Below, one piece after another: positions 10,341 through 20,562 of a stretch of DNA of 21,627 nucleotides. The notes beneath the pieces were generated by a model that was not told the DNA's origin, did not search any database, and was given only the letters and a program-made list of their open reading frames with translations. Positions within the stretch are counted from its first letter, which is position 1. Every line of letters starts with the position of its first letter. Source of the stretch: a virus. A program made the translations under genes and the position numbers. The stretch is taken from positions 1 to 21,627 of the IMG/VR virus record IMGVR_UViG_3300032046_000248. One strand, 5' to 3'.

Positions 10341-10414
10341 CTGGGATTAGCTCAGTCCGGCAGAGCACTCGCTTTGGGAGCGAGGGGCCACAGGTCCAAA
10401 TCCTGTATCCTAGA
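10341..10414 (+). tRNA. tRNA-Pro(TGG)
   Basis: Complete cloverleaf: acceptor CTGGGAT/ATCCTAG, D-stem GCTC/GAGC, anticodon stem CTCGC/GCGAG with loop TTTGGGA, T-arm ACAGG/CCTGT. The T-loop is TCCAAAT, with C at position 55. CCA is not encoded. A structured RNA element starts 2 nt after it. Confidence 0.93.
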
Positions 10415-10416
10415 CT

Positions 10417-10478
10417 AGATTGCCCACAGCAACACATATAAAACCTTCAAATTGGATTGAAAATGTTAACGGCAATCT
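10417..10478 (+). ncRNA. CAGCAAC-family RNA element E1
   Basis: 62 nt closed by an 8-bp perfect stem AGATTGCC/GGCAATCT. The 5' strand is followed by CACAGCAACACATATAAAA, then a hairpin TTCAA/TTGAA (10446-10450 with 10457-10461) and TTAAC just before the 3' strand. It begins 2 nt after tRNA-Pro. Elements E5 and E6 share this layout closely. Confidence 0.6.
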
Positions 10479-10492
10479 GTGATATTATAGTA

Positions 10493-10567
10493 AGGCTACA
10501 CACTGCAACACATACAATTGGTAAAGCTAAACGCTTATGGGTTCAAACCCCAAAATTTATGTAGCCT
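10493..10567 (+). ncRNA. CAGCAAC-family RNA element E2 with T-arm-like hairpin
   Basis: 75 nt closed by AGGCTACA/TGTAGCCT (8 bp). The motif CTGCAACACATA follows the 5' strand, then a small AAGC/GCTT hairpin and a T-arm-like hairpin TGGG-TTCAAAC-CCCA. The T-arm lies 8 nt from the acceptor-like strand, so it is not a normal tRNA. It is best seen as a tRNA-like member of the element family. Confidence 0.5.
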
Positions 10568-10579
10568 GATGAATCATTT

Positions 10580-10659
10580 GACTTCTTACAGCAACAAAAA
10601 ATGCAGCAATGCAACTTACAGTTGAGCCCCAGGGCTCCATCGTTTCAAGAGGAGAAGTC
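10580..10659 (+). ncRNA. CAGCAAC-family RNA element E3
   Basis: 80 nt closed by GACTTCT/AGAAGTC (7 bp). The 5' strand is followed by TACAGCAACAAAAAA, then TGCA-GCAA-TGCA and GAGCC-CCAG-GGCTC hairpins. A competing hairpin GAGG/CCTC overlaps its 3' strand. The rest of the gap to the next tRNA (10660-10711) holds only a weak ATACT/AGTAT hairpin. Confidence 0.5.
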
Positions 10660-10711
10660 CTCCCCCTCAAAGAGAGAAAATACTAGAAGTCAGTATTGTA
10701 CTTTTACATAT

Positions 10712-10863: not shown

Positions 10864-10956
10864 GCCAAAGAGATTGCTCATGGATGAGCAAGTAATCAGT
10901 AATGATTATTAACAGCAATCTTAACATATATAGAGGTTCGAATCCTCTCTTTGGCT
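10864..10956 (+). ncRNA. tRNA-like RNA without an anticodon arm, enclosing a family-type stem
   Basis: 93 nt. Acceptor-like stem GCCAAAG/CTTTGGC with T at the discriminator position, and a perfect T-arm AGAGG-TTCGAAT-CCTCT. In place of the D and anticodon arms is an 8-bp stem AGATTGCT/AGCAATCT (10871-10878 with 10914-10921) that holds a hairpin TAATCA-GTAA-TGATTA and TTAAC before its 3' strand, the same end as E1 and E6. No 5-bp stem with a 7-nt anticodon loop can be drawn. The alternative, a degenerate tRNA with a D-arm TTGC/GCAA, leaves the middle unexplained. The layout recalls tmRNA or bacterial Y RNAs with a tRNA-like module. Confidence 0.65.
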
Positions 10957-10958
10957 CT

Positions 10959-11013
10959 AGGCTTCACACAGCAACTCATAAAATACAACTGTTAATTGTA
11001 AAAATCGAAGCCT
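10959..11013 (+). ncRNA. CAGCAAC-family RNA element E5
   Basis: 55 nt closed by AGGCTTC/GAAGCCT (7 bp), starting 2 nt after the tRNA-like RNA. ACACAGCAACTCATAAAA follows the 5' strand, then hairpin TACAA-CTGTTAA-TTGTA. Five T follow the 3' strand, so it could also slow transcription. Confidence 0.6.
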
Positions 11014-11019
11014 GTTTTT

Positions 11020-11092
11020 GTTGGTGTAGTTCAGCGGTTAGAACGCTTCTCTGATAAGGAAGAAGTCGCTAGTCCGAATCTAGCCATCAACA
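11020..11092 (+). tRNA. tRNA-Ile(GAT)
   Basis: Acceptor GTTGGTG/CATCAAC, D-stem GTTC/GAAC, anticodon stem CTTCT/GGAAG with loop CTGATAA, T-stem GCTAG/CTAGC. The T-loop is TCCGAAT (C55). The T-arm is identical to that of tRNA-Asn in this window. Confidence 0.93.
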
Positions 11093-11095
11093 CCT

Positions 11096-11154
11096 AGCTT
11101 GCATACAGCAACACATAAAAAACTTCTGACATAAGAAAATTTTAACGCAAGCTG
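11096..11154 (+). ncRNA. CAGCAAC-family RNA element E6
   Basis: Closed by AGCTTGC/GCAAGCT (7 bp), starting 3 nt after tRNA-Ile. ATACAGCAACACATAAAAAAC follows the 5' strand (11103 on), then a TTCT/AGAA hairpin and TTTTAAC before the 3' strand. It is the last element before the Ro-like gene. Confidence 0.6.
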
Positions 11155-11242: not shown

Positions 11243-12667
11243 ATGAGGACTAACAGTTTTCTAAACGCACTACAGACTAGAGATGCTCTTACTGAGAATG
11301 ATATGGTAACTCATTCTACCTCAGGTAGCAGGGTTCTAGATTTGTTCTATGGTATGGGTGGGTCTCGTCAGTTGAATGAGGCCAGAATCGCAGGTATGTT
11401 CTCACAGGCTTTTATTGAGAACAGACTTCTAGCTACCAAGGCATTGTTCTATAACAGGGACGTGCGTGGTGGACAGGGAGAGAGACGCTCATTCAGAATT
11501 ATGTTTGAGTATCTATGCTATGATCATCCAGAGGTAGCAATCAAGAACATCCCTAACGTACCCTTCTACGGAAGATGGGACGACTTGTTCAATGCACTAG
11601 GAACTCCTGCAGAGAAGCCAGCTTTGGACTTTATAGCTACTGCTCTAAAGGCAGGAGACAAGCTATGTGCTAAGTGGATGCCTCGTGAGGGTAAGCACAA
11701 CTCAGCTTGGGCAAAGATTCTTCGTACCCACCTAGAGCTAACCCCAAAGCAGTATCGTAAGCTATTGGCTGGAAACACTCAGGTTATCGAGAATTTTATG
11801 TGCTCAGGGGACTGGGGAAAGATTGACTACAACCACGTTCCTTCTGTAGCTTCCAACAAGTACAGACACGCCTTCGGAAAGCACGACTTCGAGAGGTATT
11901 CAGGATGGTTGGAGAGTCTAAGCAAGCCTGAGTCAGGAAATAAGATTCATGCTGACGCTATCTTCCCACACACCATTGTTCACGGATACCTAAGTAACCA
12001 TTATGGGGGTATCAAGGGACTGGACAAGACCCTAGAGGCTCAGTGGAAGGCTCTACCTAACTATGTTCCAGATGGACACTCATTCATTCCTGTATGTGAT
12101 GTTTCAGGGTCAATGAATGGAGAGCCTATGGAGGTAAGTGTAAGTCTAGGTGTATACCTATCAGAGAGGAACAAGGGACCATTCAAGGATGCGTTCCTAA
12201 CTTTCTCAGGTCGTCCACAGCTACAGATTCTTACCGGAAATACCCTAAGAGGTAAGATTGAGCAGTTGGAGGCTTCACACTGGGATATGAACACCGACCT
12301 AGAGGCAGTATTCAAGTTGATATTGTCAAAGGCTACGTCAGGTTCAGTTCCTGCAGAGGATATGCCTGAGACCATCCTAATCATTTCCGATATGCAGTTC
12401 GACCAGTGTATCGAGAAGCCAAGCAACACGGCTATGGATATGATTAGAAGGCAGTACGAGACCGCTGGTTACAAGATTCCAAACGTGGTGTTCTGGAACG
12501 TAAGAACCTCACAGGGAATTCCTGTAAAGCTAGACGAGCAGGGTACTGCAATCGTAAGCGGATTCTCACCTAGCGTTATGAAGAATCTATTGAGTGGTGA
12601 GATGAGACCTGACGCAGTAATGCTTCGTACCTTGCTAGACCCAAGGTACGAGAGAGTAGTAATCTAA
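11243..12667 (+). CDS. DUF2828 / TROVE-vWA (Ro60-like) RNA-binding protein
   Basis: 474 aa. The N-terminal part (about 25-270) matches the DUF2828/TROVE alpha-helical repeat domain, with the signatures FYNRDVRGGQGERR (69-82), FYGRWDDLF (108-116), KWMPREGK (144-151) and DYNHVPSVASNKYRHAF (195-211). The C-terminal part is a vWA domain with a complete metal site: DVSGS (286-290), Thr351 in DMNTDLEA and Asp383 in IISDMQFD. Ro60 proteins with this pairing form a ring that binds the ends of structured or misfolded RNAs and Y RNAs, and in bacteria can tether RNA-degrading enzymes. The gene follows six small structured RNAs and a tRNA-like RNA. It prefers C/G-ending codons (GAG, AAG, TAC, AAC) more than its neighbours, suggesting high expression. 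Functional equivalence to Ro60 is inferred; DUF2828 itself is poorly characterised. Confidence 0.87.
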   Translation: MRTNSFLNALQTRDALTENDMVTHSTSGSRVLDLFYGMGGSRQLNEARIAGMFSQAFIENRLLATKALFYNRDVRGGQGERRSFRIMFEYLCYDHPEVAIKNIPNVPFYGRWDDLFNALGTPAEKPALDFIATALKAGDKLCAKWMPREGKHNSAWAKILRTHLELTPKQYRKLLAGNTQVIENFMCSGDWGKIDYNHVPSVASNKYRHAFGKHDFERYSGWLESLSKPESGNKIHADAIFPHTIVHGYLSNHYGGIKGLDKTLEAQWKALPNYVPDGHSFIPVCDVSGSMNGEPMEVSVSLGVYLSERNKGPFKDAFLTFSGRPQLQILTGNTLRGKIEQLEASHWDMNTDLEAVFKLILSKATSGSVPAEDMPETILIISDMQFDQCIEKPSNTAMDMIRRQYETAGYKIPNVVFWNVRTSQGIPVKLDEQGTAIVSGFSPSVMKNLLSGEMRPDAVMLRTLLDPRYERVVI

Positions 12668-13490: not shown

Positions 13491-13561
13491 GCTTTGGTAG
13501 CTCAAAGGCAGAGCGAGTGTCTCTAAAACACTTTATAGGGGTTCAATTCCCCTTCAAAGCG
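13491..13561 (+). tRNA. Amber suppressor tRNA, anticodon CTA
   Basis: Acceptor GCTTTGG/TCAAAGC, D-stem GCTC/GAGC, anticodon stem AGTGT/ACACT with loop CTCTAAA, T-arm AGGGG-TTCAATT-CCCCT, discriminator G. Loop positions 34-36 are CTA, which reads the stop codon TAG. GTCTCTAAAAC in this arm differs by one base from GTCTCCAAAAC of the window's tRNA-Trp, and both have G73, so it may derive from tRNA-Trp. In E. coli, tRNA-Trp mutated to CUA (Su+7) is charged mainly with Gln. The amino acid inserted here cannot be read from sequence. Confidence 0.92.
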
Positions 13562-13572
13562 CACATCTTTTT

Positions 13573-15198: not shown

Positions 15199-15270
15199 TA
15201 CCTCGTAGCTCAACGGTGGAGCGGGAAGCTGTTAACTTCAGGGTTGCTAGTCCGAATCTAGCCGAGGTAG
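15199..15270 (+). tRNA. tRNA-Asn(GTT)
   Basis: Acceptor TACCTCG/CGAGGTA, D-stem GCTC/GAGC, anticodon loop CTGTTAA, T-stem GCTAG/CTAGC with loop TCCGAAT (C55), discriminator G. Confidence 0.9.
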
Positions 15271-15281
15271 CAAGGATGTAA

Positions 15282-19977: not shown

Positions 19978-20499
19978 ATGGAGATGTCAAGAGTTTGGGC
20001 TATGCCCAACCATAATACATTTGAAATCAAACCAATAAGAGAATTTGTGCTAAAGTACCTCTCACAATCAAAATTTAGCATAGACCCTTTTGCTAGAGAC
20101 AGCAAGTTAGCAACAATTACTAATGACCTAAATCCTGATACGGATACTGGGTATCATCTATTAGCAAAGGATTTTCTTTCTGTGATGAAGGAGAGACAAA
20201 TAAAACCAGACCTGGTTATAATGGATCCTCCCTACAGTATAGGTCAGATCAAGCAGTGCTATGAAAGTTTTGGTGCCGACTTTGGACAGCATGAGGCTCA
20301 GTTTACCCCAAGTTGGGTAGAAGAACGAGACATAATCAAAGAGATATTAACAAATGGTGGTGTGGTATTGTCTTTTGGTTGGAATAGTAACTGTATGGGA
20401 AAGACAAGAGGGTTTGAAATAGTAGAAATAATGTTAGTAGCTCACGGTGGACCTCATAATGATACCATATGTGTAGCCGAAAGAAAAAATGCCGCTTAA
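19978..20499 (+). CDS. Small adenine-type DNA methyltransferase-like protein
   Basis: 173 aa, starting MEMSRVWAMPNHNTF; AAGGA lies 7 nt before the ATG. SIDPFARDSKLATITNDLNP (about 35-54) resembles the SAM-binding region of a compact phage/plasmid family, LVIMDPPYSIGQ (about 80-91) is the amino-methyltransferase DPPY motif IV, and SFGWNSNCMGKTRGFEI...HGGPHNDTI is the family's conserved end. It probably methylates adenine (or cytosine N4) in DNA, perhaps to avoid restriction; no target-recognition domain is seen. Its last codons GCC-GCT-TAA are also the first 9 bases of tRNA-Thr(TGT). Confidence 0.78.
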   Translation: MEMSRVWAMPNHNTFEIKPIREFVLKYLSQSKFSIDPFARDSKLATITNDLNPDTDTGYHLLAKDFLSVMKERQIKPDLVIMDPPYSIGQIKQCYESFGADFGQHEAQFTPSWVEERDIIKEILTNGGVVLSFGWNSNCMGKTRGFEIVEIMLVAHGGPHNDTICVAERKNAA

Positions 20500-20562
20500 A
20501 CATATACGGTGATGCGCCTCCCTTGTAAAGAGGAAAACCGGATTCGAGTTCCGGAGGTGGCT
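20491..20562 (+). tRNA. tRNA-Thr(TGT), overlapping a protein gene
   Basis: Acceptor GCCGCTT/AGGTGGC, anticodon loop CTTGTAA on CCTCC/AGAGG (inner pair mismatched), T-arm CCGGA-TTCGAGT-TCCGG, discriminator T as in the other Thr tRNAs. The first 9 bases contain the methyltransferase stop codon. Confidence 0.85.

Follow-up and report, generated by a model that had tools for sequence, protein, structure and literature searches.

The locus and its gene neighbourhood

The stretch of DNA analysed here, hereafter the window, is a virus record of 21,627 bases, probably a fragment, that carries 27 tRNAs called by ARAGORN, genes for replication and one encoding a DUF2828/DUF7788 protein. An array of small RNA elements, here named E-RNAs, spans the interval from tRNA-Pro to this last gene, which is rsr-like, and five free copies flank a tRNA-like element. 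The features are, in window coordinates:

10341-10415, tRNA-Pro (ARAGORN)
10416-10479, + strand, free E-RNA E1, beginning directly after tRNA-Pro
10493-10567, + strand, free E-RNA E2, with the motif variant ACTGCAA and a T-arm-like hairpin inside
10578-10693, + strand, free E-RNA E3, longer than the others, with the 3' strand AGAAGTCAG and an inner alternative partner
10864-10956, + strand, tRNA-like element, with its discriminator base at 10956
10958-11014, + strand, free E-RNA E5, beginning two bases past the 3' end of the element
11020-11094, tRNA-Ile (ARAGORN)
11095-11154, + strand, free E-RNA E6, beginning directly after tRNA-Ile
11243-12667, + strand, rsr-like gene (DUF2828 and DUF7788, phrog_850), with a Ro60/TROVE fold predicted by an AlphaFold model and Foldseek

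The rsr-like gene adjoining the array most likely encodes a Ro60 homologue, because the AlphaFold model of its product (mean pLDDT 75.4, 11 sequences) was matched by Foldseek to a TROVE domain (9kop, E 3.7e-8, TM 0.60), the Ro autoantigen (1yvr, E 4.3e-7), the Ro60 of Thermus phage phiLo (9l5y, E 5.1e-6) and the Rsr of D. radiodurans (2nvo, E 1.7e-5). A sequence search of the PDB with an Rsr profile retrieved no Ro60, its sole match being irrelevant (E 0.2). Phage homologues of Ro60 are common, with matches in 682 of 50,697 phage records.

Elsewhere in the window, the Rfam tRNA model matches positions 20491-20562 (+) with 37.7 bits, above its cut-off, at a place where ARAGORN makes no call. 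A possible amber suppressor is the tRNA with a CUA anticodon at 13491-13562 (+), which ARAGORN labels tRNA-Pyl.

Anatomy of the tRNA-like element

The element consists of the following parts (loci of the surveys described below are designated by L and a number):

10864-10870, + strand, 5' strand of the acceptor stem, GCCAAAG, forming 7/7 pairs with 10949-10955
10874-10891, + strand, D-like hairpin TTGCTC-ATGGAT-GAGCAA; a D arm is also present in L120, L256 and L404
10892-10909, + strand, capped E stem GTAATCA-GTAA-TGATTAT at the place of the anticodon arm, recovered by scans for capped hairpins
10912-10918, + strand, family motif ACAGCAA, supported by its enrichment in the family
10932-10948, + strand, T arm AGAGG-TTCGAAT-CCTCT, taken from the Rfam tRNA alignment
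10949-10955, + strand, 3' strand of the acceptor stem, CTTTGGC

The tRNA-like ends put forward in the original prediction were confirmed: the 7-bp acceptor stem is perfect and canonical, and the T arm has five pairs and a loop, TTCGAAT, that fits the canonical TTCRANY. In a covariance search for a cloverleaf, which the original prediction had named as a possible refutation, the Rfam tRNA model matches the element end to end with 25.1 bits (E 0.24 over the window), below its gathering score of 29 bits, and leaves the middle unaligned. ARAGORN calls no tRNA at 10864-10956. No anticodon arm with a 7-nt loop was found in the element, and the 13 nt from ACAGCAA to the T stem leave no room for one. 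The D-like stem, of 6 bp, is slightly irregular in starting 3 nt past the acceptor instead of 2. The GNRA-like hairpin expected in the middle is real and corresponds to the capped E stem; ACAGCAA starts two bases past it, within the 0-4 nt after a stem strand by which E-RNAs are recognized. Comparison with tmRNA, also suggested at the outset, found no support, since neither ARAGORN nor Rfam reports a tmRNA at this place.

Two mutually exclusive folds of the middle

The original prediction further placed in the middle an 8-bp stem that would replace the D and anticodon arms. The two strings concerned, AGATTGCT (10871-10878) and AGCAATCT (10914-10921), are present and exactly complementary. Their pairing would destroy TTGCTC-ATGGAT-GAGCAA, so the 8-bp stem and the D-like hairpin are mutually exclusive. 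With the acceptor, the E hairpin and the T arm held, the D-like fold reaches -26.3 kcal/mol versus -24.7 kcal/mol for the fold with the 8-bp stem, which is thus 1.6 kcal/mol behind. The unconstrained minimum of the element alone is -28.5 kcal/mol; minimum and centroid both keep the D-like and GTAA hairpins, and the T arm gives way to a longer outer helix. The syntenic counterpart of the element in L120 has, by eye, an ordinary D arm and no complementarity like that of the 8-bp stem, and L256 and L404 likewise fold with a D arm and without such a stem. Energy, L120 and the folds of L256 and L404 thus speak against the 8-bp stem as the main fold. It is probably not the fold, and the D arm is kept rather than replaced. 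The 8-bp stem would cover AGCAA of the motif, which makes a switch hiding ACAGCAA conceivable, but an RNA built from acceptor, T arm and this stem, with or without such a switch, appears very unlikely.

The likeness noted between AGATTGCT and the stem of E1 is probably a coincidence because E stems vary between copies; what recurs is ACAGCAA beside a stem. That a single RNA combines tRNA-like ends with the module shared by the small RNAs around it remains correct, this module being the capped hairpin with ACAGCAA and not the 8-bp stem.

The E-RNA family and its linkage to rsr

E1, E2, E3, E5 and E6 share one form, in which a stem strand is followed by one or two bases, ACAGCAA (ACTGCAA in E2), a body and the other strand. 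All end in CTG except E3, which ends in CAG. A stem with ACAGCAA is the core of a family that has no Rfam model; no Rfam family reaches its cut-off on the free E-RNAs of the window.

Linkage to rsr was assessed in 80 viral loci fetched through the rsr-like neighbour protein, some of which have less than 1 kb upstream. An E-type element lies within 1 kb upstream of rsr in 26/80 loci; averaged over all 105 arrangements of its seven letters, the motif itself counted, the number is 2.1. The runners-up are AACAGCA, which overlaps the motif, with 24 loci, and then an ordering with 9. About 1 kb downstream of rsr, E-type elements occur in 27/80 loci, and upstream in antisense in 1/80. Among annotated phages, an E element is found within 2 kb upstream of rsr in 9 of 17 loci (mean of the orderings 1.0; the next best, with 6 and 5, overlap the motif). 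These upstream elements include those of Listeria, Campylobacter, Bacillus, Vibrio, Enterococcus and Synechococcus phages, the ones counted in KVP40 and Lak-B9 being weak. Salmonella VSe11, Mycobacterium Faith1 (where a permuted gene stands next to rsr) and Staphylococcus 6ec carry E elements downstream of rsr, and a scripted scan detected no convincing E element near rsr in Ochrobactrum OC, LR756508 and Serratia BF.

In Listeria phage CKA15, E elements lie at 25,289-25,553, between tRNA-Met and rsr; according to the excerpt cited here, the region upstream of the Rsr gene was proposed by the authors to encode Y RNAs (PMC12282133). The RNA described there as most abundant in CKA15 (OR088597.1, 26,236-26,727, − strand) overlaps three doubtful ORFs; it was considered as an E-RNA and rejected, since a scan of this stretch yielded no ACAGCA-plus-stem element. 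Y RNAs of mycobacteriophages are also on record, by way of a passage that cites them.

Several recurrent variants were encountered in the loci. Long-bodied E-type elements (156-171 nt), alike in their bodies, occur in L136, L139, L155, L160, L167-L170, L183, L186, L187, L194, L196, L200, L207, L208 and L210; most begin with TAGGATCGGTACAGCAA, they precede the rsr match by about 235-1,450 bases, and an Rfam scan of part of these loci returned tRNA matches only. A very similar E element, TAGAATGTTAACAGCAA...ACATTCTG, has its motif some 50-65 bases ahead of where the rsr match starts in L136, L149, L155, L160, L164, L168-L170, L172, L183, L186, L187, L194-L196, L198, L200 and L207-L210, and could also be a 5' UTR element for autoregulation. 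A long-bodied E-type element of 183 nt, near-identical in the two contigs L190 and L193, lies about 1.8 kb past the start of the rsr match.

Chimeras of tRNA and E module in two gene orders

Relatives of the element were sought independently of rsr with a pattern consisting of ACAGCAA followed by GGTTCGAATCC within 12-42 bases, which occurs in at least 120 stretches of viral contigs. Matches in the 120 loci listed comprise 36 permuted and 28 normal-order chimeras, 60 unclassed cases and 3 at an edge; the DNA fetched per locus (mean 8.8 kb) contains an rsr ORF in 36 cases. Bacterial contigs contributed 14 normal-order, 2 permuted and 107 unclassed matches, with 3 at an edge. Another pattern, YACAGCAACNCATANAA, gave mostly chance matches, of which those bearing a stem were kept (the window, L120, L017/L054/L092 and L030); matches in L022/L031/L039 have the stem but resemble protein-coding repeats and were discarded. 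With looser T arms and all loci included, 111 distinct chimeras in 83 clusters were obtained, 53 in normal order and 58 permuted. Normal-order chimeras also occur in contigs of bacterial genomes, several of them Lachnospiraceae MAGs (L415, L416, L417, L424, L404, L371 and L396, among others).

Sorted by their stems, the two arrangements represent one circular order. A permuted chimera has both RNA ends in the E stem and encloses an anticodon arm (where present), a T arm, a closed acceptor and a D arm; a normal-order chimera ends at the acceptor and has its E stem capped as a hairpin. At the border of stem and loop of this hairpin, 43 of the 53 normal-order chimeras read TG, like the CTG end of free E-RNAs, versus AG in the element of the window.

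The distance from ACAGCAA to the T stem in the 53 normal-order chimeras is at least 23 bases in 46, 18-21 in 4 and 11-13 in 3. These last three are the element of the window (counted as its copy L357), L256 from a viral contig (95 nt) and L404 from a Lachnospiraceae MAG contig (90 nt). The minimum-energy folds of L256 and L404 consist of acceptor, D arm, E hairpin, unpaired ACAGCAA and T arm. Since they share the layout without an anticodon arm, the element belongs to a small recurring subtype which, judged from sequence and predicted folds, is a tRNA body with its anticodon arm exchanged for an E arm.

Decoding tRNAs interrupted by the E module

Many relatives appear to be tRNA genes able to decode. 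When arms were chosen by pairing alone and identical copies were removed, an anticodon arm was found in 18/28 normal-order and 17/39 permuted chimeras. U33 is present in 17/18 and 16/17 of these arms, respectively, and A37 in 15/18 and 17/17; control arms at displaced positions have U33 in 4/10, 0/5 and 2/8. Counted by cluster, 29 of 31 representatives have U33. In these decoding chimeras the anticodon stem harbours the E module in its 5' strand.

Joining of the putative exons was evaluated by fusing the downstream arm directly to the two or three bases that follow position 26, which could be done for 32 of the 83 cluster representatives. A near-perfect anticodon stem resulted in 23/32, versus 12 unjoined; shuffling of upstream exons among genes gave a mean of 9.2 and at most 17 in 5,000 shuffles. 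Among representatives with an imperfect local stem, joining restored 16 of 20 (shuffled mean 6.6, with none of 5,000 shuffles reaching 16), and in a first version of the test the count was 24 of 39, against an average of 10.0 and no more than 18 in 2,000 shuffles. ARAGORN accepted the joined exons of 18/19 normal-order and 20/20 permuted chimeras, and 0/39 unjoined. Because it accepts exons swapped between genes nearly as often (mean 35.6/39), only the stem-restoration test counts. Restoration of the stem fits splicing, and equally an unspliced tRNA from whose stem the E module bulges. The relatives thus seem to carry the E module inside decoding tRNA genes, in normal or circularly permuted order, with putative splicing. 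Unlike in many of them, joining restores no anticodon arm in the element of the window.

The chimera near base 2495 of the minus strand of L272, a viral contig, would acquire on joining the anticodon UUA, which would read the stop codon UAA. The idea that chimeras fill missing isotypes was not retained: 6 of 9 (7 records) have an anticodon unseen elsewhere by ARAGORN, which is no evidence, since too few other tRNAs are present.

Interpretation and alternative explanations

The element of the window is, with better than even probability in our judgement, a tRNA-shaped RNA lacking an anticodon that belongs to a family of small phage RNAs linked with Rsr, and it would act as a Y-RNA-like scaffold. 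Its anatomy, its recurrence, the linkage of the family to rsr and the predicted Ro60 fold form the observed basis of this interpretation. The element would be transcribed within the tRNA operon. We infer that RNase P and RNase Z cut its two ends and that CCA is added; the RNase Z cut would also free the 5' end of E5. Such processing is made more plausible by the spacing of the array, E5 starting two bases after the element and E1 and E6 one base after the 3' ends of tRNA-Pro and tRNA-Ile. The E arm may then bind Rsr made from the next gene, and the tRNA-shaped half may serve as a handle through which tRNA enzymes, a nuclease or a toxin directed at tRNA reach the Rsr ring, in the manner of bacterial Y RNAs. 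This assignment of the E arm to Rsr and of the tRNA body to an effector is drawn by analogy: in YrlA, according to the excerpt cited, Rsr is held by the stem and an effector is met by the tRNA-like domain (PMC8394870).

The counterpart in L120 invites another explanation. L120 is a viral contig with an Rsr fragment 73% identical to that of the window; its counterpart sits between tRNA-Met and E5/tRNA-Ile and reads, by eye, as an E-interrupted tRNA-Asn(GUU). The window could therefore hold a decayed version of this gene that lost its anticodon arm, the rest being a relic, and the presence of another tRNA-Asn at 15199-15271 (ARAGORN) agrees with such a loss. Yet the acceptor and T stems are perfect, although 4/7 acceptor pairs and 4/5 T-stem pairs differ, by eye, from L120 on both sides. 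These two-sided changes that still pair argue against plain decay, as does the occurrence of the arm-less layout in two other sequences, and we consider a relic unlikely. An intact body without an anticodon loop would also suit a decoy or antagonist that keeps anticodon nucleases or other defence enzymes aimed at tRNA occupied, Rsr being incidental. The same idea was raised for YrlA (PMC7790460, in an excerpt), and some phage tRNAs are described as countering tRNA-cutting defences (PMC12409363, in an excerpt). The ACAGCAA module, however, is also found in E-RNAs without any tRNA body, clustered beside rsr, which makes this role fairly improbable. The spacing of E1, E5 and E6 could, for its part, mean that the element is chiefly a processing signal in the transcript, where cutting by RNase P and RNase Z would release the E-RNAs next to it, E5 foremost. 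Such punctuation would leave the E module within the element unexplained, and we find it quite improbable.

More speculative than the Rsr-linked scaffold, and doubtful though worth entertaining, is a general system of tRNA-gene rearrangement in viruses of bacteria, comprising interrupted and circularly permuted tRNA genes, in which the E stem and ACAGCAA would guide the cutting and ligation that join the gene halves and Rsr would hold the RNA. The free E-RNAs and the element of the window would belong to the same RNP, and the Class I RNAs of dictyostelids would be eukaryotic relatives.

Under the preferred reading as an Rsr-linked scaffold, the element would be one end point, at which the tRNA body is retained and the decoding arm is swapped for a Ro60-linked module. 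The E motif offers a simple way to find candidate RNA partners of phage Ro60 homologues, on which little was found in the open-licence literature. Questions that become testable are which RNA is held by phage Ro60, whether any viral tRNA genes are permuted or spliced, and whether the Y RNA world extends to the Class I RNAs of social amoebae.

Comparison with known systems

The likeness to the phage Ro60/Rsr proteins, represented by that of Thermus phage phiLo (PDB 9l5y, an entry known by its title), lies in the fold of the product of the adjacent gene.

Permuted and intron-containing tRNA genes resemble the relatives of the element in that an E module lies inside decoding tRNAs in both orders and that joining restores the anticodon stem. 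According to the excerpts cited, group I introns are known from bacterial tRNA genes and from phages of bacteria (PMC3984707), and by 2014 six algae and one archaeon had yielded 34 permuted tRNA genes (PMC3978253). The relatives described here differ by their occurrence in viral and bacterial MAG contigs and by the ACAGCAA module, and the element of the window by having no anticodon arm to restore. Among the open-licence papers listed, nothing was found on permuted phage tRNA genes, on short interruptions of phage tRNAs other than group I introns, or on the ACAGCAA motif; earlier papers on bacterial Y RNAs may hold a description.

Dictyostelid Class I RNA (RF01414) shares with E-RNAs a terminal stem whose 5' strand is followed by ACAGCAA and a 3' end that reads CUG(U), as described in the excerpt cited (PMC7919456); from the same excerpt and the model consensus, its ACAGCAA lies beside the 5' strand and is little paired (PMC7919456). 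One partner of Class I RNA is an RRM protein. E-type elements are among the best matches of the RF01414 model in rsr phages, as far as the matches were checked, with a best E of 1.9e-5 in Vibrio BUCT194. Three E-RNAs of the window match with E 4.8e-4, 6.9e-4 and 4.2e-3, and E1, E5 and E6 score 19.8-23.5 bits. The cut-off of 41.5 bits is reached in none of the 17 records, and 7 of 14 control genomes also match at E<=1. What we describe is a likeness between Class I RNA and E-RNA, without a claim of homology.

A close parallel is found in the YrlA RNAs (RF02553), partners of Rsr (Ro60). The element of the window has D, T and acceptor arms like those of a tRNA, lacks an anticodon arm and lies beside an rsr-like gene, all of which are YrlA-type traits. 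It is nevertheless not a member of the YrlA family as modelled: RF02553 does not match it, and none of the 5 matches listed for the window record lies there. The YrlA consensus is without ACAGCAA, and in YrlA the RNA ends at the basal stem and its parts come in the order T arm, closed acceptor, D arm, whereas the element ends at its acceptor and has its module capped. Just upstream of rsr in L005 (5690-5815) lies a permuted YrlA-like E element with the anticodon loop CTTTTAA (Lys) and the motif CCAGCAA, which indicates that the first base of the motif can vary. The YrlA model is matched along its full length by L005 with 38.6 bits and along part of it by L186, which also has a permuted tRNA body, with 33.6 bits; none of the 11 records exceeds the gathering score of 69 bits. 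The comparison with YrlA made in the original prediction proved apt nonetheless, as the permuted tRNA-like E-RNA of L160 spans the whole of that model in its match (40.1 bits, with E 2.4e-9 in the search of its record) and the gene adjacent to the element has a predicted Ro60 fold.
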